From NCBI RefSeq assembly GCF_027587195.1, contig NZ_JAPDDP010000073.1, positions 1 through 40,801 on the forward strand: 40,801 nucleotides of DNA, written 5' to 3'. Position numbers and translations under genes: made by a program. This stretch comes from Solirubrobacter phytolaccae. GTDB taxonomy: Bacteria > Actinomycetota > Thermoleophilia > Solirubrobacterales > Solirubrobacteraceae. The notes under the pieces were generated by a model. The model saw only the letters and a list, made by a program, of their open reading frames with translations, ran no database searches and had not been told where the DNA came from. The stretch's first letter is position 1. Each line of letters begins with the position of its first letter. Positions 6,430 to 22,368 of this stretch are shown one piece after another.

Positions 6430-7421
6430 CTCAGCTCCCGCTCGCCGAGCTGCACGTCCACTTGGAGGGCACGGCGCCGCCCGCGCTCATCCGCAAGCTC
6501 GCCGACCGCAACGGGTTGACCGTCCCCGAGGGCGTCTTCGAGACGCCCGAGAAGTTCCGCTGGGTGGACTTCCTGGACTTCCTGCGCACGTATGACCTCG
6601 CCGCGAGCGTCATCCGCACGCCCGAGGACTACCGCGACGTCACCTACGAGTACCTCGTCGGCTGCGCGCGTGAAGGCGCCATCTACGTCGAGCTGATCGC
6701 CTCGCCCGACCACGCGGCGAACGTCGGGCTCAGCGACGCCGATCACTACGCGGGGATCGCCGCCGGGATCGACGACGCGCGCGCCGCGACCGGCATCGAG
6801 GCGCGCATCCTCGTCACCGCGATCCGCAACTTCGGGGTGGAGGCGGCGGTGGAGATCGCCCGCCGGCACGCGGAGGAGCGCCATCCCTACGTCGTCGGCT
6901 TCAACCTCGCGGGCGACGAGGCGGGCTACCCGCCGGCGCAGTTCCACGAGGCGTACGCGATCGCGGCGGCGTCCGGCCTGGGCTGCACGGTGCACGCGGG
7001 TGAGCACGCGGGCGCCGAGTCCGTCCGGGAGGCGCTCACGCTGCCCGTCAGCCGCCTCTCGCACGGCGTGCGGGCGATCGAGGATCCGGCGCTGGTGGCG
7101 GAGATCGCCGAGCGCGGCATCGTGCTCGAGGCGTGTCCGACCTCCAACGTCGCCACGCACGTGTTTGCTTCGTACGAGGAACATCCACTTCGCAAACTCC
7201 ATGAAGCGGGTGTGAAGTGGACGTTGGGTTCTGACGACCCTCCCTATTTCGGCTGTAGCATCGGCGGCGAGTACGCCGTAGCGCGTGAGCGTTTCGGCTT
7301 CGAGGAGGGTGAGTTGAGGACGATCACGCGCACGGCGGTCCAGGCGTCCTTCGCGGACGATGCGGCCAAAGCCACCCTGCTCAATCGAATTACTGCCTCA
7401 GACGACCGCCACGACCACTAG
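6426..7421 (+). CDS. add: Adenosine deaminase
   Basis: 331 aa. It deaminates adenosine/deoxyadenosine to inosine/deoxyinosine, feeding PunA. Metal ligands and catalytic residues are visible: H10-V-H12 in ELHVHLEGT, the CTVHAGE motif with His and catalytic Glu, SHGVRAI with its His, and LGSDDPPYFG with the metal-binding and neighbouring Asp. The ATGA overlap (6426-6429) with deoA marks one operon. An adenine-deaminase-like or aminodeoxyfutalosine-deaminase specificity cannot be excluded from sequence alone, but the neighbours favour adenosine. Confidence 0.92.
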   Translation: MTQLPLAELHVHLEGTAPPALIRKLADRNGLTVPEGVFETPEKFRWVDFLDFLRTYDLAASVIRTPEDYRDVTYEYLVGCAREGAIYVELIASPDHAANVGLSDADHYAGIAAGIDDARAATGIEARILVTAIRNFGVEAAVEIARRHAEERHPYVVGFNLAGDEAGYPPAQFHEAYAIAAASGLGCTVHAGEHAGAESVREALTLPVSRLSHGVRAIEDPALVAEIAERGIVLEACPTSNVATHVFASYEEHPLRKLHEAGVKWTLGSDDPPYFGCSIGGEYAVARERFGFEEGELRTITRTAVQASFADDAAKATLLNRITASDDRHDH

Positions 7422-7463
7422 GGTCGCGGCTCGGTCGTTCCAATTCGAAAAGGAGTCCCGGCC

Positions 7464-8510
7464 GTGCGCCGACCACTTCATTTCATCGCCTTGCTGGCCA
7501 TGCTTTGTTCTTTCTTCGTAGCCGCGTGCGGCTCCGACGAGGAGGAACCGGCCACCGGCGGTAGCCCCTCCGCTGAGGAGACCCCGGCCAAGGAAGCGAT
7601 CAAGGTCGGCCTGGTCACCGACATCGGCGGCCTGAACGATCGCTCGTTCAACCAGCTCGCCAACGAAGGGCTCGAGCGGGCCAAGTCCGAGTTGGGCGTG
7701 GAGACGCGAGTGCTGATCTCCAAGGCCAACTCCGACTACGTGCCGAACCTCAGCACGCTCGCGCAGCAGCAGTACGACCTGGTCATCGGCGTCGGCTTCC
7801 TGATGGCCGAGGCGATGAACACCGTCGCCCCGAAGTTCCCCAAGACGAACTTCGCGATCATCGACGTGGACGCCACGGGCCTCGAGTCCAAGCCGACCAA
7901 CACCGCGGGCGTGCTCTTCAAGGAGAACGAAGCGGGTTACCTCGTCGGCTACATGGCGGGCCTGTACATCAAGGACGAGGGCGGCGGAACGGCGAGCTCG
8001 GTCGGCGGTCAGAAGATCCCGCCGGTCGACGCGTACATCGCCGGCTACCAGGCGGGCGTGAAGGCCGCCAACCCGGACGCGAAGGTCGTCAACGGCTACT
8101 CGCAGAAGTTCGACGACCCGGCGCCGTGCAAGGAGCTCGCGCTCGACCACATCGCGCAGGGTGCGAAGGTCGTCTTCCAGGTCGCCGGTGGCTGCGGCCT
8201 CGGCGCGCTGGACGCGGCGAAGGAGAAGGGTGTGCAGGGCATCGGCGTGGACGCCGACCAGGCCTACCTGGGTGACCAGATCATGACCTCGGCGCTCAAG
8301 AAGGTCGACGTCGCGGTCTACGACGAGATCAAGGCCGTGCAGGACGGCACGTTCAAGGGCGGTGCCAACACGATCTTCGACGTCAAGTCGGGCGCGGTCG
8401 GCATCGGCGAGACGAACGAGGTCGGCGCCAAGTACGCCGACCAGATCAAGGCGGAGCAGGAAAAGATCGCCTCGGGCGAGCTCACCGACATCCCCAACAC
8501 CGTCAAGTAA
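7464..8510 (+). CDS. nupN: BMP-family nucleoside-binding lipoprotein of an ABC transporter
   Basis: 348 aa. The N-terminus is a signal peptide ending in a lipobox (FVAAC), then an acidic linker. The BMP/PnrA fold follows: VGLVTDIGGLNDRSFNQLANEGLERAK, a DLVIGVGFLMAEAM segment, AGYLVGYMAG, and GCGLGALDAAKEKGVQGIGVDADQ, which contacts ribose in PnrA-type proteins. It would capture nucleosides at the outer membrane face and deliver them to the permeases encoded downstream. The start GTG at 7464 has a strong AAAGGAGT Shine-Dalgarno 8 nt upstream. This is the first intergenic gap (42 bp) in the operon and may hold a separate translation signal, but no clear promoter or terminator was seen. Confidence 0.92.
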   Translation: MRRPLHFIALLAMLCSFFVAACGSDEEEPATGGSPSAEETPAKEAIKVGLVTDIGGLNDRSFNQLANEGLERAKSELGVETRVLISKANSDYVPNLSTLAQQQYDLVIGVGFLMAEAMNTVAPKFPKTNFAIIDVDATGLESKPTNTAGVLFKENEAGYLVGYMAGLYIKDEGGGTASSVGGQKIPPVDAYIAGYQAGVKAANPDAKVVNGYSQKFDDPAPCKELALDHIAQGAKVVFQVAGGCGLGALDAAKEKGVQGIGVDADQAYLGDQIMTSALKKVDVAVYDEIKAVQDGTFKGGANTIFDVKSGAVGIGETNEVGAKYADQIKAEQEKIASGELTDIPNTVK

Positions 8511-12945: not shown

Positions 12946-13341
12946 GCTCGGGCTGACATAGCGCTCCCCGCGCGTCACGGCGTCCAGCCCGTCGATCAGC
13001 TCGGGCAGCCCGCCCTCCTTGAGGACGATCCCGTGTGCGCCCGCCTCGAGCACGCCCTGCAGCTCCTGCGGGTCGGTCGTGGCCGTGAACACCACGACCT
13101 TCGTGTGCAGCTCCGCGGCCACGAGCCGCCGGATCAGCCCCTCGCCACCGCCCTCGGAGGCCAGGTGCAGATCCACCACCGCCACGTCGGGCTTGCTGCC
13201 CAGCACGAGCTCCGCGCCGGTCTCCGCCGTACCCGCCACGCCGCACACGGTCCAGCCCCGCTGCTGGAGCACGTCGCGCAGAAAGATCCGCAGCGCCCCG
13301 TGGTCTTCGACGATCGCCACCGTCCGTCCCTCGTTGCTCAT
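12937..13341 (-). CDS. Stand-alone response-regulator receiver protein
   Basis: 134 aa, one REC domain without output domain. Visible: VAIVEDHGALRIFLRDVL with the acidic pair, the phospho-acceptor Asp in DVAVVDLHL, VVFTATTD with the switch Thr, and GAHGIVLKEGG with the conserved Lys. It may relay a phosphate or act by protein-protein contact, like CheY or Spo0F; no kinase is encoded nearby. An ATG at 13353 is an alternative start. It diverges from the DUF4031 gene with only 5-17 bp between them. Confidence 0.85.
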   Translation of the reverse strand: MSNEGRTVAIVEDHGALRIFLRDVLQQRGWTVCGVAGTAETGAELVLGSKPDVAVVDLHLASEGGGEGLIRRLVAAELHTKVVVFTATTDPQELQGVLEAGAHGIVLKEGGLPELIDGLDAVTRGERYVSPSLG

Positions 13342-13358
13342 GCCAGCCTTCATACCCG

Positions 13359-13649
13359 ATGACGGTCCTGGTGGATCCGCTCCGGCGCTACGAGCACGTC
13401 CCGTTCACGGTCAAAGACTGGTGCCACATGGCCGTCGACGGCTCGTTCGAGGAGCTCCACGCGTTCGCCGCGGCTCTCGGCATCCCGCGCTCGCGCTTCC
13501 AGGGCGACCACTACGACCTGGTGCCGTGGATCCGCGAGCGTGCGGTGACGTTGGGCGCGGTCGAGGTCGAGACGTCTGAGCTCTTGGTGCGCATGGCGGG
13601 TCCGCGCGGCGACCGTGCCCGACGGCGCACCGCCGCGCGGTCGTCGTAA
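13359..13649 (+). CDS. DUF4031 family protein
   Basis: 96 aa. The pattern is that of DUF4031: MTVLVDPL at the start, then KDWCHMAVDGSFEELHAFAAALGIPRSRFQGDHYDLV and a short helix with LGAVEVETSELLVRM, followed by a basic tail. The function is not known; conserved Trp, His and Asp suggest a small enzyme or nucleic-acid-binding unit. It lies just upstream of the gasdermin-protease pair on the same strand with a 77-bp gap that contains a candidate promoter, so it is probably a separate transcription unit. Confidence 0.75.
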   Translation: MTVLVDPLRRYEHVPFTVKDWCHMAVDGSFEELHAFAAALGIPRSRFQGDHYDLVPWIRERAVTLGAVEVETSELLVRMAGPRGDRARRRTAARSS

Positions 13650-13667
13650 GCGCCCGGCTCGCGCGCA

Positions 13668-13696
13668 TTGACAACGGCGGCGGCCTCATGTGAGAT
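13668..13696 (+). promoter_or_regulatory. Candidate promoter of the gasdermin-protease operon
   Basis: TTGACA at 13668-13673, a 17-nt spacer, and a weak -10 TGAGAT at 13691-13696. Transcription would begin near 13703, about 24 nt before the TTG start at 13727. The -35 and spacing are ideal, the -10 is poor. Confidence 0.4.
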
Positions 13697-13726
13697 CGCG
13701 CATCCGTCTCCTACTCGCTGAGCTCC

Positions 13727-14560
13727 TTGCCAAGACTTCCACTCTGCTCGGGCGATCCGCTCGTCCACACGCTGCGCGACCTGTTCGACGCGGTTCCCCT
13801 CCGCACGCCGGAGGAGCGCGTCACGACGATGTCCGTGGTCGCGAGCCAGGACGGCCGTTCGCGGTTCCTCGGGCCGCTCGGCCCGATCCTGGACGGCGAT
13901 GAGGCACTCGACGTCGACGCGATCGAGTCCCGCATCGCCTCGCTCGCGGGCAAGCGCTCGCGCGTCGTCGAGCGCAAGCTGGCGCTCGAGATCCTCGAAG
14001 GCTTCCTCGCCCCGCTCGGCGTGCCGCTGCCCGCGGTGGCCGCCGCCGTCGGCCGCTCGACGAAGGTCTCGTTCCGGTTCGACGACGTGCGCCGTCGTTA
14101 CGTCGAGGTCACGCGTGTCGGCAAGCTGCTGCGTGATCGGCGCATCGACACCGCCAACGCGACCGCGACGATGTTCCTCGAGCAGCGCGCGGACTTCCTC
14201 CTGGTCGACTCGGTGCTCCAGAGCTCCGGCTTCGCGATCGAGGTGGACGACGAGCGCAGCCGCAGCGCGGAGTTCGACGCCGGGGCAATCAGCGAGCTGA
14301 TCGGGACGGTCCAGCCGTCGACGACGACCGTCACGGCGGATCAGCGGCAGATCACGTTCGCGGGGACCCGCCCGCTGACGTTCGCGTTCTCGTGCGTCCG
14401 GTTCTTCGTCGACGAGTACGGCGCGCTGGCCTCGATCGAGCCCGACCGCGGGCCCGCGAGCCTGGGCTTCGGCCCGTCCGGTGTCGTCATCGAGACACCG
14501 AACCGCGTGCTGCTCACCCAGGAGCCGGCGCTGCTCGAGTGGGACGACGACGGGCTATGA
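13727..14560 (+). CDS. Bacterial gasdermin-like pore-forming protein
   Basis: 277 aa, the size of bacterial gasdermins. The N-terminus CSGDPLVHTLRDLFDAVPLRTPEERV matches the family pattern C..DP.V..LR......R.P, with a Cys (residue 7) near the start where family members are palmitoylated. Then VSFRFDDV (111-121), an FLLVDSVLQSSGFAIEVDDE segment (157-176) and ITFAGTRPLTFAFSCVRFFVDEYG (209-232), which correspond in order to the family's FxFxDV, VITxVLxSxxFxVxA and ITYxGPxPLVFGFxAVxLFxD strands. A ~40-residue tail follows, in the position of the short autoinhibitory C-terminus removed by proteases. The TTG start is the only reasonable one (upstream in-frame stop at 13691, next ATG loses the Cys). 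Family assignment is by pattern recall and needs an HMM or structure check. Stop overlaps the protease gene (ATGA). Confidence 0.78.
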   Translation: MPRLPLCSGDPLVHTLRDLFDAVPLRTPEERVTTMSVVASQDGRSRFLGPLGPILDGDEALDVDAIESRIASLAGKRSRVVERKLALEILEGFLAPLGVPLPAVAAAVGRSTKVSFRFDDVRRRYVEVTRVGKLLRDRRIDTANATATMFLEQRADFLLVDSVLQSSGFAIEVDDERSRSAEFDAGAISELIGTVQPSTTTVTADQRQITFAGTRPLTFAFSCVRFFVDEYGALASIEPDRGPASLGFGPSGVVIETPNRVLLTQEPALLEWDDDGL

Positions 14561-15729
14561 GCTCGACCCCCGCGAACGCGTACCTCGAGCGCCTGCAGCG
14601 CAACCTCTTCGCCGCCACCGGGGAGGATCCCGAGCGCCTTCAGGAGATCGGGGACAAGACGATGGCGACGGTGCTGGGCGGCGCGACGAAGGTCGGGTTC
14701 CCGGACGCCGAGGCGATCCCGAAGATCCTGCAGGAGGAGTTCGCGCGCGGTTTGGCGATGCGGCCGTCCCGCTACGAGGATCCGCTGACGCACATGCTGA
14801 TGGTCCGGCTCGCGGACGACCTCGAGAAGACCGCGGGGACCCTGGGCTATGAGCTGCCTCCGCGGCCGGTGTTCGGCACGTTGCCGCTCGGGCAGCTCAA
14901 CGCGAGCGCGATCGCCGTGCCCGACTCGTCGGAGCACCTCATCGTGTTCCAGAAAGGGCTGTTCGGCTTCATGAACCTCTTGGCGAAGGCGGTCGCGGCG
15001 AGCCTGCCGTGGGTCGACGAGCCGGAGGGCGGCGGGGTGTCGTTCAGCACCGATGTGGACAAGATCCGCGAGCATCTCAAGAGCGACTCCGAGCCGGCGG
15101 CCCGGCTGGCGGACTTCGTCGCCTCCTACGTGGTCGAGGGTGATCCGCACCGCTCGCAGCAGTACTTCCTCGGCGGCCCGGCGATGCGCCTGGCGGAGAT
15201 CCTGCGTTACGGCGGCGAGCTGTTCGTGCTCGCGCACGAGTACGGCCACATCGTCAGCGGGCATCTCGAGAGCGATCACCGGACCGAGCAGGTGGCCGAC
15301 GAGACCCTCACGATCGTCTCCGAGCCGTGGGTGAAGGAGCATCAGGCCGACTACATCGGGATGATCCTGGCCGTCTCGACGATGCACCACGAGAAGGACC
15401 TGGACATCGCGATGGCCTTCGGCGCGGTCGACCTGGTCTTCTCGGCGATGGCCCTGGTCGACGCCGCGCTCGGAGTCGTCGCCGTCAACGACCCTGAGGC
15501 GACGGCCCGGTCGGACACGCACCCTCCGGCTCAGCTGCGCCAGGCGATGCTGCGGGAGATGCTCGACCGCGCACTCGACGACGAGGCTCAGGTCGCGGCG
15601 GCACGCTTGTTCGCCGAGACGCTCGACGAGATCATGCAGGTGCTGTGGGACAGCATCGCGCCCTACCTGAGCGAGCTGCACGCACGCGGCGTGCGGCCCT
15701 CACCCATCTGGGGCATCGCTCCCGCCTAG
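14557..15729 (+). CDS. HExxH zinc metalloprotease, putative gasdermin activator
   Basis: 390 aa, no signal peptide or clear membrane segment. The zinc motif H227-E-Y-G-H231 lies in ELFVLAHEYGHIVSGHL and is followed 30 residues later by E261-H-Q-A-D265, the ExxAD third-ligand pattern of M48-like gluzincins. The N-terminal ~200 residues are helical and of unknown fold (SEHLIVFQKGLFGFMNLL, then an insert); they may be the sensing or regulatory part. The start ATG overlaps the gasdermin stop, so the two proteins are made together. By analogy with known gasdermin operons, it would cut the gasdermin C-terminal tail upon a phage signal. Family members of this protease type have other roles elsewhere, so the role is inferred from the overlap. 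Confidence 0.82.
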   Translation: MSSTPANAYLERLQRNLFAATGEDPERLQEIGDKTMATVLGGATKVGFPDAEAIPKILQEEFARGLAMRPSRYEDPLTHMLMVRLADDLEKTAGTLGYELPPRPVFGTLPLGQLNASAIAVPDSSEHLIVFQKGLFGFMNLLAKAVAASLPWVDEPEGGGVSFSTDVDKIREHLKSDSEPAARLADFVASYVVEGDPHRSQQYFLGGPAMRLAEILRYGGELFVLAHEYGHIVSGHLESDHRTEQVADETLTIVSEPWVKEHQADYIGMILAVSTMHHEKDLDIAMAFGAVDLVFSAMALVDAALGVVAVNDPEATARSDTHPPAQLRQAMLREMLDRALDDEAQVAAARLFAETLDEIMQVLWDSIAPYLSELHARGVRPSPIWGIAPA

Positions 15730-15751
15730 CGCCGGGCGTGAGGCCCCGCGC

Positions 15752-15955
15752 TCACCACGACAGGTAGTCGCGCGCGTCCGGGATCCGCTTCAGCGCCCGG
15801 TCGATCTCGCCGCGCTCGGCGGTCGGGATCTGCACGTCTCGGCCCTTGACCATGACGGGGCACTCCGGGAGAGCGGCTCGAAGTCGCCAGATGGCCATGT
15901 GGGCCTCACTGCTGTCGTTGAGAAGCGTGAGGGTACGGCCGGTCTGAGGGCTCAT
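15752..15955 (-). CDS. Small conserved-looking protein of unknown function
   Basis: 67 aa. Start ATG at 15955 has a GAGGGG Shine-Dalgarno-like sequence about 7 nt upstream; longer starts have Arg/Pro-rich low-complexity sequence. The protein is predicted helix-strand-helix (TLTLLNDSSEAHMAIWRLRAALPECPVMVKGRDVQIPTAERGEIDRALKRI) with one Cys. I do not recognise it. It converges on the protease gene with 22 bp between the stops. Confidence 0.55.
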   Translation of the reverse strand: MSPQTGRTLTLLNDSSEAHMAIWRLRAALPECPVMVKGRDVQIPTAERGEIDRALKRIPDARDYLSW

Positions 15956-16022
15956 GCGCGTCCCCTCGGCCGGCCGGCGTCCCGAGACGAGTCCTGCACG
16001 CGGCGTTGCAGAGGCCACTCGG

Positions 16023-16028
16023 TACGAT
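16023..16028 (+). promoter_or_regulatory. Candidate -10 (TACGAT) for the HEAT-repeat gene
   Basis: TACGAT is 11 nt before the ATG at 16040, fitting the short-leader pattern seen for other genes here. No -35 at the right spacing. Confidence 0.3.
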
Positions 16029-16039
16029 CCGCACTCGCC

Positions 16040-16789
16040 ATGTCGACGGAGTCCCGCTCACCGCTCGAGCTGTTCGAGATCGCCTACGACAGCGAGGGCG
16101 ACGCGTACAGCGACGTCCTGCGAGAGCTGCACTGGAGCGGCGAGCGGGTCACGTTCGAGATCGCCCGCGCGTGGGCGTTCGACCCCGACGAGCTCCGCCG
16201 CATCGTCGGCCTCGACGTGCTGGGCCAGCTCGGCATCGCCCAGTCGGCGCGCCGCTCCCACTGGCCCCACCGCCCGGAGACGATCGAGCTGCTGCGGCGC
16301 ATCCTCCAGGACCCGAACGTGCCGCTGGACGTCCTCGAGTCGGCGATCGTCTCCGCCGGCCATCAGAGCGCCCGCGCGCTGCTGCACGACGTCATCGCCT
16401 TCGTCGACCACCCCGACGACGACATCCGGTCCGCGGTCACGTTCGCCGTCTCCTCCCTCCGCGTCTTCGCCGACGACGACGGCGACCTTTACCCCGCCGC
16501 GCCCGAGATCGTCGACACCCTCATCCACCTCTGCGCCGACGACGTCGCCGAGATCCGCGAGTGGGCGCTGTTCCACCTGCGCATCCTCGAGGACGACCAG
16601 GCCCCGAACGAGTCCCCGGGCGCGCTGGCGGCCTACCTGGCCGGCGTCGAGGACGAGGACGAGGACGTCCGCCTGGAGGCGCGACAGGCGCTCGAAGCGC
16701 TGGGCCTCCGCAGCGAACCCCGCATCGGCCGGCTGTCCCGCCCGATGACGCGCCGGCGCCGAGCGCACCGCCGCTCGCGCCGTCGCTGA
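16040..16789 (+). CDS. HEAT-repeat domain protein
   Basis: 249 aa, acidic, with a strongly basic Arg-rich tail. Helical pairs with the HEAT rhythm are visible: LLRRILQDPNVPLDVLESAIVSAG, ALLHDVIAFVDHPDDDIRSAVTFAVSSL, IVDTLIHLCADDVAEIREWALFHL, AYLAGVEDEDEDVRLEARQALEALG; each has the P-D-xx-[VI]R core. It probably is a protein-binding scaffold. The ATG at 16040 is preferred because the 47 residues upstream are not HEAT-like and overlap the opposite small gene. It is the last gene before the island; its end is 10 bp from attL. Confidence 0.8.
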   Translation: MSTESRSPLELFEIAYDSEGDAYSDVLRELHWSGERVTFEIARAWAFDPDELRRIVGLDVLGQLGIAQSARRSHWPHRPETIELLRRILQDPNVPLDVLESAIVSAGHQSARALLHDVIAFVDHPDDDIRSAVTFAVSSLRVFADDDGDLYPAAPEIVDTLIHLCADDVAEIREWALFHLRILEDDQAPNESPGALAAYLAGVEDEDEDVRLEARQALEALGLRSEPRIGRLSRPMTRRRRAHRRSRRR

Positions 16790-16799
16790 CCCTCGGCCA

Positions 16800-16843
16800 A
16801 GCCGGAGACGGGATTCGAACCCGTGACCTACCGCTTACAAGGC
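16800..16843. repeat. attL: 44-bp tRNA-Thr fragment
   Basis: Identical to 22295-22338. It comprises the anticodon-stem 3' half, variable and T arms and the acceptor 3' strand of the tRNA on the minus strand. It lacks the 5' half and is not a functional tRNA. Confidence 0.9.
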
Positions 16844-16948
16844 CTGAATTTGAAGTGACGCGAGACCTCGATTTTGGCCATGGAAGGCCGATTTCGGGGT
16901 CTCGGTCCTTTCGCGGATTGTCAGCGATCGGGCTGAATCGACTGGGGT

Positions 16949-17815
16949 TTAGGCACGTTTAGGCGCAAATCCGGCGGCGTCGATCGCGTCGACGAGTCCC
17001 TGGACGGCGGCGGCCGCGTCGTGGACGTTCCGGGGCTCGAAGTCGAGTTCGGCGGCGAGGGCGGCGTACTGCTCGGGCCAGCCGTCGAACACCGTGACCG
17101 TCGGCGGCCAGGAGTGCTTCGCGCGGAGTGCGAAGATCTCGACGCAGGCATCGCGCACGCGGGCCAAGTCGTCAATCAGGCCTTCAAGCATCAGAACGTC
17201 GCTGAGATCGCGGAAGCGGTCGTTGGGTGGTGGCTCGGCGAAAACCTCGGTGCACGCGTGGAGCTTCTGGGCGATCTGGTAGCGAACAGCCACGCAGGCG
17301 ACGTCGTCCGGACCGCTCAGACCGAAGGGGCCGAGAGGGATGGCCGGCACGCGATCGATCTCCTGTCCGGCGTCTCCCTCGGTCGGCGCGACTTCGAGCT
17401 TCACGGTGCCCCAGGAGCGGCCACGGTACGCGAGCTTGAGGTCGAGCTGGATGGCGTCGGTGTTGCGGATCGTACGCGGCGGGGTGCGAGTGATCTTGAA
17501 GTCGCCGTAGGTGTCGGCGATCGCCTGGTCCAGGCGATCGAGCATGTCGCCGCTGCGCTCGCGAAAGGCGGTGTCGTAGTCCTTCGTCGCGCGGGCATCG
17601 AGTCCGAGCCGTAGTTCCATCGCCACGCCACCCTTGAGCGCGAACACGGGATCGTCGTCCTCGTCCCGGACCCGCTCGAGAGCCGCCGCGACGACCATGA
17701 ACGAGATCCAGCGCTGGAGTCGCTGCTGGGCAACGCCGGTCGCCTTGGCGTGCTCGCCGACCCAGCGCTGCAGGACCTGCACGTTGTGCGGCGGCTTGCC
17801 GCGCTCGACGGGCAT
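16949..17815 (-). CDS. abiEii: AbiEii-type nucleotidyltransferase toxin
   Basis: 288 aa. Motifs of the AbiEii/AbiGii (DUF1814) family are present: VFALKGGVAMELRLGL (KGG 61-63, the GS-like nucleotidyltransferase motif) followed by KDYDTAF with D79 and D81 as metal ligands, a later D in IQLDLKLAYRG, and YQIAQKLHACTE with the conserved Lys-Leu-His. In type IV systems this toxin modifies RNA or another target with a nucleotide and is opposed by AbiEi. The ATG at 17815 shares one base with the TGA of the antitoxin gene (TGATG), so the pair is coupled. A phage-defence role is inferred from the family. Confidence 0.9.
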   Translation of the reverse strand: MPVERGKPPHNVQVLQRWVGEHAKATGVAQQRLQRWISFMVVAAALERVRDEDDDPVFALKGGVAMELRLGLDARATKDYDTAFRERSGDMLDRLDQAIADTYGDFKITRTPPRTIRNTDAIQLDLKLAYRGRSWGTVKLEVAPTEGDAGQEIDRVPAIPLGPFGLSGPDDVACVAVRYQIAQKLHACTEVFAEPPPNDRFRDLSDVLMLEGLIDDLARVRDACVEIFALRAKHSWPPTVTVFDGWPEQYAALAAELDFEPRNVHDAAAAVQGLVDAIDAAGFAPKRA

Positions 17816-18378
17816 CAGGGCGCCCGGCCTCCGGGACGGGCGAGGCGCTTGAGTTCGGCCTCCTCCGCTTTGCTGATCGCGCCGCGCTGGCGAGCTGTGC
17901 TGATCGCCTGCTTGATCAGATGCGCGCCCAAGTGGACCTCGATGCCGTCGCGGATCGCGCGCGCTGGCGTGACGATCGGGATCCCCTCATGGTTGGTGAC
18001 GTCGCGCTCGTCCAGGTCTCGGTGATGTAGCCGGTAGGCGGACGGGATCTCGCGCGTGATCCGCAAGTCCTTGCGGACTGTCACGTGGACCTTGGTCGGA
18101 TTGATGTCGCACAACTCGTGCAGGTCTAGCGCCGTGTCGTGGCTTAGGACCCCGCCACCGCGCGGCCACAGCGTGGCCTCCATGTACTGATCGAGCCCGG
18201 TGACCGGGATCGCCGGAACGCGGTACAGCCCATAGGCGACGCGTTCGAGCGTGCCCCGCTCTGCCATCTTGCGGAGTCGGTCCGCGACCACGTCGACAGC
18301 GGCAGCGTCTTCGGCTGTCACGTAGCCGTACTGGCCTACCGCTACATCCATCAGGGCGTTGTATCCGGCTCCCGGCAC
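17815..18378 (-). CDS. abiEi: AbiEi-type antitoxin/repressor
   Basis: 187 aa. The N-terminal winged helix is clear: YNALMDVAVGQYGYVTAEDAAAVDVVADRLRKMAERGTLERVAYGLYRVP. The C-terminal AbiEi domain follows (LSHDTALDLHELCDINPTKVHVTVRKDLR, VTPARAIRDGI, KQAISTARQRGAISKAE). It neutralises AbiEii and represses its own promoter. The GTG at 18378 is chosen because it brings the helix-turn-helix into register and stands exactly 7 nt after a TATCTT -10, that is, a leaderless start. The ATG at 18351 is an alternative. The longer frame to 18582 crosses the operator and is rejected. Confidence 0.88.
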   Translation of the reverse strand: MPGAGYNALMDVAVGQYGYVTAEDAAAVDVVADRLRKMAERGTLERVAYGLYRVPAIPVTGLDQYMEATLWPRGGGVLSHDTALDLHELCDINPTKVHVTVRKDLRITREIPSAYRLHHRDLDERDVTNHEGIPIVTPARAIRDGIEVHLGAHLIKQAISTARQRGAISKAEEAELKRLARPGGRAP

Positions 18379-18380
18379 AC

Positions 18381-18415
18381 CGCACAAGATAGGACATTTC
18401 GACCGATCTTGTGCG
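18381..18415 (-). promoter_or_regulatory. abiE promoter and palindromic operator
   Basis: A perfect 10-bp inverted repeat CGCACAAGAT (18381-18390) / ATCTTGTGCG (18406-18415) with a 15-bp spacer. The proximal arm overlaps the -10 TATCTT (18391-18386 on the minus strand). Binding of AbiEi here would block the polymerase, in line with known AbiEi autoregulation at inverted repeats. Confidence 0.7.
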
Positions 18416-18662
18416 AATTGACGTAGATGGCCTACGTGCCCCGTCGAAGCTGGGCTCGTGGCTGAATTGCCGGGGGTCAATACGTTCGAGCTAACTCGGA
18501 GCATCCGGCACTCGGGCGATTCGGGAATCCCACAAGCCACCGACCGCGCGCTTCTCAGGCACGGAACTTCGGCTTCCAACACGTATTCGTGCCCCCAAGA
18601 AGCGACATCGCCTTCCGTAAATCTCGCTGTACGATGGAAGGCACCACGCGTTGCCCGTACCG

Positions 18663-18902
18663 ATGACCTGGACGACCCGAGAGCTCAACGAGATCCAGCA
18701 AGCGGCCACTCGCGAGTTCATGGGCGATGCCGATGTGCTCGGAGTGCGGGTCCGTCGCCAGCACGCTGCGCCCACGCTGCAGATCACGTGTGCCACGGAC
18801 GCCAGTGTTGTTGCCGCGCGGCTACCTGCGACGTTCCGGGGGTTGACAGTTGTCTGTCGCGAGGCCCAGCCGATGGTCCTCGGGTACACGATCGCGCAGT
18901 AG
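18663..18902 (+). CDS. Small hypothetical protein
   Basis: 79 aa from the ATG at 18663 (TTG at 18651 also possible). The composition is protein-like: TTRELNEIQQAATREFMGDADVLGVRVRRQHAAPTLQITC, then VVAARLPATFRGLTVVCREAQPMVLGY. The repeated strand pattern (ADVLGVRVRR / PTLQITC / GLTVVCREAQP) looks like a small alpha/beta fold. A possible promoter, TTCCGT...TACGAT, lies upstream near 18612-18633. I do not recognise the family. It is the only plus-strand gene in the left half of the island. Confidence 0.5.
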   Translation: MTWTTRELNEIQQAATREFMGDADVLGVRVRRQHAAPTLQITCATDASVVAARLPATFRGLTVVCREAQPMVLGYTIAQ

Positions 18903-19140
18903 CCACACCCCCACTGGCCTGCTGGAACGTCCAGGGAGCTGGATCTTCGAGGACACGCCGAGATCCGCCGTCAGCTCGCGATACAGCTCGACATCACATC
19001 CGCGATCGCCTGGCGCAAGCACGTACGACTCCGCTTCGCACAGATCATGACCGTGCTCGCGATCACCGGTTTCGTGCTCGCCGAGACGGCGTTTGGATAG
19101 CGACGCCTAAGGCTGACCACGGAGTAGGCTGTCTGCCGCT
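18903..19140. other. Gap without a supported gene
   Basis: The plus frame that follows the stop of the small protein stays open to about 19098 and reads like real protein with a short hydrophobic segment (IMTVLAITGFVLAETAFG). However, it has no start codon of its own. It may be a gene remnant. Confidence 0.35.
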
Positions 19141-20586
19141 TCATCCGCGGCGGAGAACGCCAGCGATCTCCTGCGAATAGATGATTGGATCGGGCTCGAA
19201 GTCGAACGCGGCATACAGCGGCCCGACAAGCGCCTGCGCGATCTCCGGCAGCGTATTCGGGATGGCGTCGTACGCGACTGCGACGAGCCCCGTCGCCTCG
19301 TCCTGCATGCTCGTGTAGAACGGACCAATCATCCGTCTGCCGCTCGCCCAGGTTGAGAGCTTGCGGCCGTGGAGCCCGCGCCAAGTCATGCGCAGGTGCA
19401 CCTGCGCTCCCGCGTCTGCAAGATGCGCGCCGAGGCGGTGAGCATGCAGAGCCAGCTCGCCCGCTCGAAAGATCGGGATTGTGATGTCCAGCAGCTCGCC
19501 GGGAGGTAATTCTCCTTCGATTTTGCTGTCGTCCTGGTAGCCGCGCAACAGCATCAGACGGCCGGCAGGATGAGCGAGCCAGTAGTCCGAGTGAGCGCCG
19601 TCGTCGAAGACCTGATCGTCGTTGAGGAAGCACTCGAGCATGCCATCAACGACCGTGACCCGCTCCGGCATACGGCCGTCCGGGACCATCCACATCGGCC
19701 AACCACTTTCGTGGCCCTCAACCTCGTGCAGGATTCGCTTGAGTACGGTGAGTGCTTGTGGCTCCGATGCGTTCTCGATCGCGTAGCCGCACGAGTAGAC
19801 CCCGTAGCGAAACCGGGATTCGTTCATCGGCCCGTCCACCTCAGCAACGAGTTCCGTCAACCGGTGAATGGCGAACGTCTCGAGTTCCGTAAGCCGTTCT
19901 TGAGGCCCCATCTCGGCCGGGCCGGGAGCTAGGGCCTCGCGGAGAGCCTGCGGGCCACCCATCGTCCGAGCGATCTCGCGGAACATGTCTGCCAACGTCT
20001 CTCGCTGCGCGCGCATGCAGCGAGAAATCACCGCGTCCCAGTCAGCCGCGTCAGCGATCGGGGCGCTCTGAGGCCCAGGTCGGCGCGTGTAATAGACGTT
20101 GTCGCGCAGTGCATGGCCGGTCGGTCCTGCCGCGCGGGCACGAACGGGGACCCGATGCCCACCCGGAACATCGATGACCACATAAGGGTTGCCAGCTCGG
20201 TCCGTCAAGTGGTGCGTTGCGACTTCGAAGTTCGGATCGGCGTACTTGCTGACGATTGCGTTGATGGCATCAGCTGAATAGCCGCCGATGTCGTACGGAC
20301 ACTGCCCCGACGGAACCCAGCCGTCGGAACGCTCGCTCGCGCCGACAATAAGCCATCCTCCTCCGTGATTCGCGAGCGCCAGGATCTCCTTCGCGAGCGT
20401 GGCCTTCCCGACGTTGTCGGTCGTGAGGTCTAGCCATTCCTTCAGCTCGACGTCGAGCGTCTCGCGTGGTGTCTCTATCAGTACCTGGAGGTCCGCAAGC
20501 GCCTCGCCAGACGTCCACTGTCGGTCCTGACTGGTCAACGCGCACCGGCCCCTTAGTGTGAGCGGATCGTGGCGGTCAGCGACCAA
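19141..20586 (-). CDS. Schlafen-type AlbA_2 domain protein
   Basis: Up to 481 aa. Near the N-terminus stands the AlbA_2 (formerly AAA_4) pattern: ETLDVELKEWLDLTTDNVGKATLAKEILALANHGGGWLIVGASE, followed by INAIVSKYADPNFEVATH and PYVVIDVPGGHRVPVRA...NVYYTRRPG. The rest is a ~300-residue region of unknown fold ending in a segment rich in Leu and aromatic residues. AlbA_2 domains bind or cleave nucleic acids and are common in defence islands and as regulators. The annotated start is TTG at 20586, which overlaps the upstream gene by 34 nt; TTG at 20538 (before TSQDRQW) removes the overlap and is equally possible. Confidence 0.75.
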   Translation of the reverse strand: MVADRHDPLTLRGRCALTSQDRQWTSGEALADLQVLIETPRETLDVELKEWLDLTTDNVGKATLAKEILALANHGGGWLIVGASERSDGWVPSGQCPYDIGGYSADAINAIVSKYADPNFEVATHHLTDRAGNPYVVIDVPGGHRVPVRARAAGPTGHALRDNVYYTRRPGPQSAPIADAADWDAVISRCMRAQRETLADMFREIARTMGGPQALREALAPGPAEMGPQERLTELETFAIHRLTELVAEVDGPMNESRFRYGVYSCGYAIENASEPQALTVLKRILHEVEGHESGWPMWMVPDGRMPERVTVVDGMLECFLNDDQVFDDGAHSDYWLAHPAGRLMLLRGYQDDSKIEGELPPGELLDITIPIFRAGELALHAHRLGAHLADAGAQVHLRMTWRGLHGRKLSTWASGRRMIGPFYTSMQDEATGLVAVAYDAIPNTLPEIAQALVGPLYAAFDFEPDPIIYSQEIAGVLRRG

Positions 20587-20960
20587 TCGATCTTGGATGG
20601 CTTCGGTGCATCATCCGGGAGAGCCAGCGACCACTCTGCAACGCGCGCGGCCCTCAACTCCGGATACTCGCCAGAGCACAGTTGAAGCTCTATAAGCGCG
20701 CGCAGCTCATCCACGTTGGCCAGCGTGGGCGTCGCGGACGCTCGAAGCGGAATCCCTTCTGGCTCCCAGAGGACCGGTAGTCGTAGCTCGATTGTGACTT
20801 GGTTCTCAGCTGACACATCGGCGTCTGGCGCGAAAGCGTTCGGGCGGCGCACGGACCGGACAGCTTGCACCTTGAAACCCCACGGGACGAGGTCCGGCCT
20901 CTCGTGCTCCAGAAATTCGCCTACCCGTGCGAGGAGCCTACGTGCACCGGATTCCGCCAT
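20553..20960 (-). CDS. Hypothetical protein, overlapping partner of the AlbA_2 gene
   Basis: 135 aa from ATG at 20960 (a longer start at 21005 adds a basic, Pro-rich stretch). It begins with AESGARRLLARVGEFLEHERPDLVPWGFK, then beta-rich parts with alternating hydrophobics (VTIELRLPVLWEPEG, AARVAEWSLALPDD, KIDWSLTATI). There is no recognised motif. It lies directly upstream of the AlbA_2 gene on the same strand and may overlap its start, so the two are probably expressed and used together. Confidence 0.6.
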   Translation of the reverse strand: MAESGARRLLARVGEFLEHERPDLVPWGFKVQAVRSVRRPNAFAPDADVSAENQVTIELRLPVLWEPEGIPLRASATPTLANVDELRALIELQLCSGEYPELRAARVAEWSLALPDDAPKPSKIDWSLTATIRSH

Positions 20961-21161
20961 GGTCGGACTCACGGTGCGATCGTACGCCGACGGCCGGCGG
21001 AACACCGGCGATGGTCGCTCGCGCTACCCGTCCTCGTGCCGGAAGCGCGCCCTAGGGCGCCATCGGAAGTCGCGTGTCGGTGCTTGGGCCGCAAGGCCAC
21101 CGTGCCATCGAGCACGAAAGAACCTGGGACAGGCCGACTGCTCCGCCTCCTAGTGGTGACG

Positions 21162-21587
21162 ATGGCGAATCACCACAACAGCTCAATCAGGGAGGAACTC
21201 GTACGCCTCGATCCCGAGAGCGTGCGTGCGGTCGCGCTGGCGGTCGCGGATCTGCTTCGCGCCGAGGACGGGACGGCGCCGGAGACGCTGCTCACGCCGT
21301 CCGAGGTCGCGCTGCGGTACGGGGTCTCTCGCGCGTGGGTGTACGCGCACGCGAGGGAACTCGGTGCCGTGCGGCTCGGGGCCGGTCCGAAGGCTCGGCT
21401 TCGATTCCACGCTGAGCGCGTCGAGGAGGCCCTCGCCACGAACTCGACACGCGGCCCGGCGGCCAAGGGGAGAGGGACCGTCCCGACGAACGCACGACGA
21501 GTCGCCGCCGAGCACGCTTTCGACGCTGGGATTGATGACCTTCCCGACGCGTGGCGCGACGCGGCTTGTTGCGCCGTCCGACGGTGA
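21162..21587 (+). CDS. Helix-turn-helix DNA-binding protein (excisionase/AlpA-like)
   Basis: 141 aa. Helical N-terminus SSIREELVRLDPESVRAVALAVADLLR, then TLLTPSEVALRYGVSRAWVYAHARELGAVRLGAGPKARLRFHAERVEEAL, which is the MerR/excisionase helix-turn-helix plus wing (the ordinary Xis/AlpA layout). A basic tail follows. It precedes the integrase fragment on the same strand, as directionality factors usually do. The ATG at 21162 follows a GTG (21156) that could also start translation. It probably controls integrase action or island genes. Confidence 0.75.
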   Translation: MANHHNSSIREELVRLDPESVRAVALAVADLLRAEDGTAPETLLTPSEVALRYGVSRAWVYAHARELGAVRLGAGPKARLRFHAERVEEALATNSTRGPAAKGRGTVPTNARRVAAEHAFDAGIDDLPDAWRDAACCAVRR

Positions 21588-21731
21588 GCGGACGCATCCC
21601 GTCTCCCTCTTCTGGTCGCTTCGGGTCCGTCCGCGCTGGCGGTAAGTTCGGAGCGTCCTACACGAATCCGGGGCGCTGCGAACGCCTCGCAGGGAAGGAG
21701 CCGCAATGGCAATCCGTAGGAGGTCGGGCTG

Positions 21732-22232
21732 ATGGCCAGACCAGCTACGGGGCAGGTGATCGAGCGAGCCGGGAAGGCGGACACGTCCTTTGCGCTTCGC
21801 TTCTACACGCCGACCGGGGAACGCCGGCAGGTACGACTCGGACGAGCGTCCGAAGGATGGACTCGGCAGCGAGCCAGTGAGGAGCTGCAAGCCGTTCGGG
21901 CGGACTTGCGGCGCGGGATCACGAATCCGCTCGCCCAGGCGCCCGAGGAGACGAAGCCGGTGCCGTTGTTCGCGGTCTTCGCGCACGAGTGGTTCGAGGG
22001 CGTCCGCGGCGAACTCCGGCCGAGCACGGTCTTGGACTACGAGTGGCAGATCACGGCGCATCCGCTCCCGTTCTTCGGGGCGATGCCGCTGTCTGCGATC
22101 AGCGTCCAGGACGTCGATCGCTACCGGCAGGCAAAGGTCCGCGAGGCCGAGAAGCGGCGCCAAGCCGTCGACAAGGGCACGCCGCTTCGCGACAAGGACG
22201 GACGGATTCTCCGCCCGCTCAACGCGACATGA
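21732..22232 (+). pseudogene. Tyrosine recombinase/integrase, N-terminal fragment only
   Basis: 166 aa. It has an arm-type DNA-binding region (SFALRFYTPTGERRQVRLGRASEGWTRQRASEELQAVRADLRRG) and the core-binding SAM-like domain (FAVFAHEWFEGVRGELRPSTVLDYEWQITAHPLPFFGAMPLSAISVQDVDRYRQAKVRE). It stops at DGRILRPLNAT, where intact integrases continue into the catalytic domain; the RKHRHY residues are all absent. Only 62 bp separate the stop from the tRNA gene. The island is therefore probably immobile without a helper. Confidence 0.8.
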
Positions 22233-22294
22233 AGCACCCGGCCCAAGTGGCCTGATTCCCCGCAAACCCGCCTGCACAGCGGTGTTCCGGTGAG

Positions 22295-22368
22295 AGCCGG
22301 AGACGGGATTCGAACCCGTGACCTACCGCTTACAAGGCGGTTGCTCTGGCCAGCTGAGCTACTCCGGC
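22295..22368 (-). tRNA. tRNA-Thr (anticodon UGU)
   Basis: A complete cloverleaf on the minus strand: acceptor GCCGGAG/CTCCGGC, D arm GCTC...GAGC, anticodon stem ACCGC/GCGGT with loop CTTGTAA (anticodon TGT), T arm ACGGG-TTCGAAT-CCCGT, discriminator T at 22295, no encoded CCA. Its 3' part (22295-22338) is the right attachment site of the island. Confidence 0.96.

Follow-up and report, generated by a model that had tools for sequence, protein, structure and literature searches.

A bacterial gasdermin gene overlapping the gene for an M48-like zinc metallopeptidase in Solirubrobacter phytolaccae

Gasdermins act both in the inflammatory death of human cells and in the defence of bacteria against phages, and the usual account has them cut by caspase-like or serine proteases, the textbook partner being a caspase-like protease. 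Bacterial gasdermins (bGSDMs) are described, in the passages cited here, as kept inactive by a buried lipid together with a short C-terminal peptide, large pores being formed by the N-domain once a linked protease has cut the protein (PMC10989679, PMC9612521, PMC9079055), and as often encoded beside the proteases that take off the C-terminal peptide (PMC9612521, PMC10989679). Where these proteases are named in the passages reviewed, they are caspase-like, trypsin-like or unspecified; the stem “metallo” is absent from the main text of PMC10989679 and PMC12547243, and the portion of the literature searched describes no gasdermin-metallopeptidase pair (the tables of Johnson 2022, Johnson 2024 and Wein 2025 lie outside that portion and may list one). 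Here we analyze a stretch of 40,801 nucleotides from Solirubrobacter phytolaccae (hereafter “the window”; contig NZ_JAPDDP010000073.1) in which a gasdermin adjoins a predicted zinc metallopeptidase (Table 1). Zincin-linked gasdermins are probably not a wholly new idea, since PADLOC already has a model for the zincin that adjoins a gasdermin in another genome (G693, see below). The new part is the M48-like branch, together with its membrane-protein neighbours elsewhere.

Table 1. Coordinates of the features discussed, in the window unless a locus handle (L) is given.
Feature	Position or loci	Strand	Details
Bacterial gasdermin ORF	13727..14560	+	277 aa, TTG start; Cys7; C-terminal tail from ~residue 228
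M48-like zinc metallopeptidase, predicted activating protease	14557..15729	+	390 aa; HEYGH 227-231, E261-HQAD, H322-P, R328
DUF4031 gene, conserved, at the left edge of the variable stretch, outside the system	13359..13649	+	PF13223 E = 3e-22; 7/7 genus genomes
HEAT-repeat protein, next clear + strand gene past the pair	16040..16789	+	PF13646 E = 1.4e-6 on the ORF from 15899
Left attachment-like site of the integrated element	16800..16843	+	44-nt exact direct repeat of the tRNA-Thr 3' end
tRNA-Thr(TGT), bounding the variable stretch on the right	22294..22368	-	second repeat copy at 22295-22338; same tRNA in L057, L059
~160-residue membrane family beside the peptidase	L004, L011, L022, L024, L025, L026, L027, L030 (upstream); L043 (downstream)		
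Second membrane-protein family near the peptidase	L008, L009, L013, L015, L017, L020, L021, L032, L035		

By its sequence, the ORF at 13727-14560 encodes a genuine bacterial gasdermin, an assignment that stands because two gasdermin profiles and the sequences of solved bGSDMs agree. The 277-aa protein matched NCBIfam NF051890 (prok_gasdermin) at E = 2.8e-52 and 177.4 bits, above the curated cut-off of 100, and the PADLOC bGSDM model at E = 2.6e-52, over model positions 1-256 of 257 and up to residue 271 of the protein. Against the PDB (phmmer), 7n51 (E = 6.6e-15) and 8sl0 (E = 4.6e-14) came first and aligned to the same stretch, with 7n50 at only 0.36; we take 7n51 and 8sl0 to be the Bradyrhizobium protein. 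Pfam gave no match. These results bear out an earlier note that had called the ORF a bacterial gasdermin from its letters and had proposed HMM similarity as one test, both the NCBIfam and PADLOC profiles matching strongly. The motif blocks, early Cys and short tail that it had pointed to are likewise all present and in order: Cys7, then SGDPLVHTLR, FRFDDV, LVDSVLQSSGF and ITFAGTRPLTFAF, followed by a tail of ~50 residues. The GC content by codon position (0.71/0.48/0.93) is similar to that of the neighbouring ABC and DUF4031 genes. The exact start codon is uncertain, as no strong or clear ribosome-binding site could be seen by eye ahead of the TTG. Neither a promoter-like nor a terminator-like site turned up in a consensus scan of 13300-16900.

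To the solved bGSDM 7n51 the window protein aligns over nearly its full length, sharing an N-terminal Cys closely before DP, the central strands and a short C-terminal tail, but the two are only 22% identical over the alignment. In an alignment of the window protein, the 7n51 chain and five gasdermins from other genomes, Cys7 falls at the position that is palmitoylated in relatives; it aligns with the N-terminal Cys of 7n51 and of L061 and P0010, one of them a Gloeothece and the other a Bacteroidia protein, a Cys that is absent from the other three. By the alignment and the PADLOC coverage, only the ~50-residue tail follows the last conserved strand, with no large C-domain. Among the five aligned gasdermins, the one of locus L061 is the most similar to that of the window (26% identity) and has C14 caspase and CHAT genes within ~4 kb. 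The window locus resembles such pairs of a bGSDM and a caspase-like protease (Runella type; L061) in its short-tailed gasdermin and protease-bearing neighbourhood, but here the gasdermin adjoins a zinc metallopeptidase. A model predicted by AlphaFold from the single sequence, with no alignment, had a pLDDT of 34.9. Pore formation and proteolytic release would be properties inherited from the gasdermin family.

The earlier note had held that the neighbouring gene also fits a gasdermin, and the product of this gene indeed appears, from its sequence and predicted structure, to be an M48-like zinc metallopeptidase. It carries HExxH, ExxAD and a downstream HP....R, which we take to be the marks of M48. 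Across an alignment of 33 members (the window protein and those of 32 of the 43 other loci of its family, 11 loci being left out), H227, E228, H231, E261, A264, D265 and the HP....R are invariant, and the variable positions within the motifs are the G of HEYGH and the H-Q of EHQAD. The pattern HE..H...E..[ASG]D is kept in 41 of the 42 ORFs of the family. The Pfam M48 model (PF01435) gave the window peptidase 13.8 bits, below the gathering cut-off of 20.3, and touched 31/33 aligned members at E <= 0.1 (best 5.9e-7). The PADLOC peptidase_U41 model (PDLC03011) matched 23/33 members at E <= 0.1 (best 1.7e-11) and the window protein only at residues 205-249 around the active site (E = 5.1e-5), not over its full length.

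Predicted by AlphaFold2 on its family alignment, the peptidase gave a confident model (pLDDT 90.7, pTM 0.91), whose best solved structural match among those listed was 3c37_B (Z 10.7 over 169 residues, 3.4 A; helical folds reach middling Z by chance), followed by DPP III (Z 7.2) and Ste24p (4il3, Z 6.7). The 3c37 chain is titled “Peptidase, M48 family” and is touched by the peptidase-family profile at E = 0.26. Foldseek with the same model returned nothing at E <= 0.001, and it is for this reason, together with the score below the Pfam cut-off, that we write “M48-like” and do not place the protein in M48 itself. With the M48 members 3c37 and Ste24p the window peptidase would share HExxH, ExxAD, the downstream HP....R and the predicted fold, but it scores below the Pfam gathering threshold and lacks the multi-span membrane domain of Ste24p: a hydropathy scan found one hydrophobic stretch only, at 290-308, so that the peptidase may nevertheless contact the membrane.

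We consider it likely that gasdermin and metallopeptidase form a two-gene abortive-infection cassette, in which the peptidase would remove the C-terminal tail and so give rise to pores. For this pair we infer cleavage, a trigger, pore formation and phage defence along the following lines. The gasdermin would be made autoinhibited, restrained by its C-terminal tail and probably by a lipid on Cys7, and the M48-like metallopeptidase would stay idle until it detects infection or some comparable insult. Once activated, it would cut the gasdermin ahead of its tail, and the freed N-terminal part would oligomerise and open large pores in the membrane of its own cell, so that the infected cell dies. 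We counted in favour of this reading the identity of the gasdermin, the intact metalloprotease motifs, the confident predicted fold of the peptidase, the overlap of the two genes, their lineage-restricted presence, the AbiE-adjacent variable stretch, the second pair in G693 and the reviews that describe bGSDMs as often neighbouring proteases of this function. Counted against it were the lack of a gasdermin at the other peptidase loci, the scores of the peptidase below the M48 cut-off and in Foldseek, the three gasdermin loci (L062, L067 and L068) at which no protease was recognised, and the precedent, in the Shield system, of a metallopeptidase-like protein that restrains. No trigger or sensor domain was identified for the cassette.

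The two genes are coupled in an operon-like way, the stop codon of the gasdermin overlapping the ATG of the peptidase by 4 nt (ATGA). A zincin is also encoded in the gene adjoining one further gasdermin, that of G693 (locus L070, 5504-7440), a genome sampled within the family to which the Tardiphaga genome L012 belongs. There the gasdermin begins 2 nt after an HEYGH peptidase gene, and the two likely form one operon. This gasdermin matched PADLOC bGSDM at 4.1e-50 and the NCBIfam model at 69.6 bits, below its cut-off. The peptidase of G693 matched peptidase_U41 over its full length (7.2e-145); among 11 genomes of its genus, only G693 had a full match, and two others weak ones. We infer that PADLOC made this model for its gasdermin system. 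An hhalign comparison of the window and G693 peptidase families aligned 108 columns ending just past HEYGH, with a probability of 76%. As at the window locus, an HEYGH zincin thus lies directly beside the gasdermin in what is likely one operon, but in G693 the gene order is reversed, the gasdermin lacks the N-terminal Cys, and the peptidase_U41 model that spans the G693 peptidase meets that of the window over 205-249 only. Neither the gasdermin nor the peptidase of G693 was found in plasmids. Taken together, the window pair and the second kind of zincin in G693 suggest that the pore is conserved and the protease interchangeable.

Six gasdermins can be considered clear (PADLOC E <= 1e-25 or near): those of the window, L061, L062, L067 (2.6e-25), L068 and L070, two of which (window and G693) have a zincin in the adjoining gene. 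No protease was recognised near the gasdermins of L062, L067 and L068, where the neighbourhood was covered by a scan for HExxH, by ORF listings or annotations and, for a few neighbours, by Pfam; gasdermins may therefore not always have a linked protease. The family of the window peptidase, for its part, turned up at 43 other loci, 39 of them in bacterial genomes and 4 on plasmids (of which L006 and L007 are near-copies). Neither the window peptidase in phages nor the peptidase alignment in viral contigs found a match. None of these 43 other loci showed a gasdermin by phmmer, a search that can miss divergent gasdermins and whose sensitivity for the family is weak (one divergent gasdermin was recovered only at 0.0068, and others were missed). 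With the gasdermin profile, 1 of 30 genomes with peptidase loci had a match (E <= 0.001), on a contig other than that of the peptidase; these 30 genomes cover part of the 39 genomic loci. The pairing of an M48-like peptidase with a gasdermin hence comes from one genome, no gasdermin having been detected beside the peptidase at the other loci.

Both the peptidase family without gasdermin neighbours and the gasdermin loci without a recognised adjacent protease speak for a reading in which the gasdermin is real and the peptidase is not its activator, the trigger being instead another host protease or independent of cleavage, and the peptidase cleaving, e.g., a phage or host protein; ancient eukaryotic gasdermins can, according to the passages of PMC12547243 consulted, function without cleavage. 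We regard this as unlikely, given the 4-nt overlap, the joint absence of both genes from sampled relatives, the second gasdermin with an adjacent zincin in G693, and the rule, stated for the family in the relevant passages of PMC10989679 and PMC9612521, that a bGSDM is cut by its linked protease.

The gasdermin is rare around the window genome, which holds one copy. The gasdermin model matched only this genome among 201 of its order and among 396 of its phylum, and 1 of 6 genomes searched in the genus, and in a seventh genome the gene was missing from 19 kb of syntenic sequence; the peptidase was likewise found in the window genome only, among 151 of the order. In other samples, which overlap in part, the model matched (E <= 0.001) 4/345 genomes from the phylum of G604 (3 above cut-off, G604 included), 1/248 from the family of G588 (below cut-off), 2/199 from the phylum of G594 (both weak) and 1/329 from the phylum of G590 (E = 9.7e-4, below cut-off and doubtful). 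The window gasdermin itself found no relative in genome contigs, plasmids, phages or viral contigs, the scans of genome contigs and viral contigs being pattern-based and reaching close relatives only. WhiB, which we take to be an actinobacterial marker family, was not found in the window genome, a result that does not exclude the phylum; among 14 controls, Corynebacterium alone matched.

The pair lies in a stretch that varies within the genus. DNA similarity to genus relatives ends near 13.64 kb in 6/6, just past the DUF4031 gene, and resumes at 22.29 kb in two of the six stretches fetched, both with tRNA-Thr there, so delimiting an 8.6-kb variable stretch ahead of this tRNA that holds gasdermin and peptidase. 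Near DUF4031, the six relatives all keep four further upstream genes, and five a response-regulator gene; a search of the 18-19 kb fetched from each of them for seven genes of the window, the gasdermin through to 20.6 kb, found none. The HEAT-repeat gene, the start of which (16040) was chosen by us, had no match in the six syntenic loci either. Direct repeats bound an integrated element at 16800-22338, the cargo of which comprises AbiEii, AbiEi, a Schlafen/AlbA_2 protein and a protein resembling HTH_17 that scored under its cut-off, and Pfam found no caspase, trypsin or subtilase among seven further ORFs of the island. One frame of the element reads, from its translation by eye, like a truncated integrase, with no profile match. 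A position of the gasdermin inside this tRNA-bounded element was considered and rejected, as the repeats span 16800-22338 and the pair, with the HEAT-repeat gene, lies to their left, still within the genus-variable stretch.

Such a distribution bears on a role of the pair in programmed lysis outside phage defence, e.g., content release or development, for which the passages of PMC13236601 consulted offer a precedent in a CARD-NLR-like system, without gasdermin, that controls gene-transfer-agent release in Caulobacter. The presence of the gasdermin in a single genus genome of those compared, and its location in a variable stretch next to the element with the AbiE genes, argue against this role, which we consider very unlikely. 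That the peptidase is a restraint which degrades the gasdermin in healthy cells, as in a toxin-antitoxin pair, would suit the coupled two-gene layout beside the AbiE toxin-antitoxin pair and the Shield protein ShdB, which is structurally related to metallopeptidases and negatively regulates ShdA, likely by degrading it (passages of PMC10270631), but is highly improbable given that bGSDMs have a built-in inhibitory tail, present by alignment in the window gasdermin, and that the linked proteases described for bGSDMs activate (passages of PMC10989679 and PMC9612521).

While the favoured reading, an activating peptidase beside a gasdermin, concerns the window, other loci of the peptidase family have neighbours of their own. 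Nine of the 43 loci encode a member of a ~160-residue family in which a transmembrane stretch is predicted (two stretches in 2 members); it precedes the peptidase at 8 loci and follows it at the ninth, and one copy is split over two frames. The members of this family share a EQRKGGQVIDLR-like motif and had no match of useful score in Pfam (two members) or PADLOC (one member); we consider this family a candidate membrane effector. A second family of small proteins, predicted to have two transmembrane stretches each (one member has three), lies close to the peptidase at another 9/43 loci, on the opposite strand and downstream in 8 of the 9 (1.7 kb away in L020), and is accompanied in 8/9 by a cysteine-bearing companion gene containing CPRC. 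Either family was thus seen at 18 of the 43 loci, and missing neighbours are in part due to contig ends, as several loci end near the peptidase. Pepco-domain proteins are encoded at two more, L029 (7.8e-7, 30 bits) and L014 (8.7e-6, 26.6 bits, just under the cut-off of 27); a Trypco label given by eye to these small proteins was rejected, the Pfam match being Pepco. In a tree of the peptidases (43 rows with the window, from the 42 loci also used to list neighbours; L046, without a phmmer peptidase match, was left out and was included in the gasdermin and partner searches), the window protein fell in no supported subgroup, its highest identity being 34%.

It is tempting to speculate, if only tentatively, that the M48-like peptidase may be a trigger module portable between defence systems that attack membranes, a class still largely undescribed, its partner differing between bacteria: one of two unrelated small transmembrane proteins, Pepco-domain proteins or, in the window, a gasdermin. 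If this holds, zinc metallopeptidases (the window family and peptidase_U41) would, like caspases, have recruited gasdermins, and more than once; the small membrane proteins would then be functional equivalents of the gasdermin. The small membrane proteins beside relatives of the window peptidase offer candidate effectors, and the two-gene system is small enough for direct testing.

A few further genes were noted at the peptidase loci. Relatives of DUF1508 adjoin the peptidase at three loci (Pfam was run on one). At L034 (2981-5179), an S8 subtilase gene directly precedes the M48-like peptidase, and similar-looking genes occur in L038 and L039 (Pfam was run for L034 only). A gene at the Bosea locus L010 looked caspase-like by eye, a label that was rejected when neither of the two genes tested there matched a Pfam family at E <= 0.01.

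Several of the gasdermins from other genomes have features of their own. Those of L067 (6664-7374, - strand) and L068 (6459-7160, + strand), both from the phylum of G604, are only 234-237 residues long, and lack the N-terminal Cys and most of the usual tail. Locus L074, taken from the phylum of G594, holds a divergent gasdermin candidate (6894-7784, - strand; PADLOC bGSDM 3.1e-9, NCBIfam 7.2e-5), and the peptidase profile found nothing in this 15-kb locus. On a Gloeothece verrucosa plasmid (L062, 6001-8391), the gasdermin is followed by a hypothetical protein that appears, by eye, to have multiple transmembrane stretches, and a CRISPR RAMP gene lies ~5 kb away.
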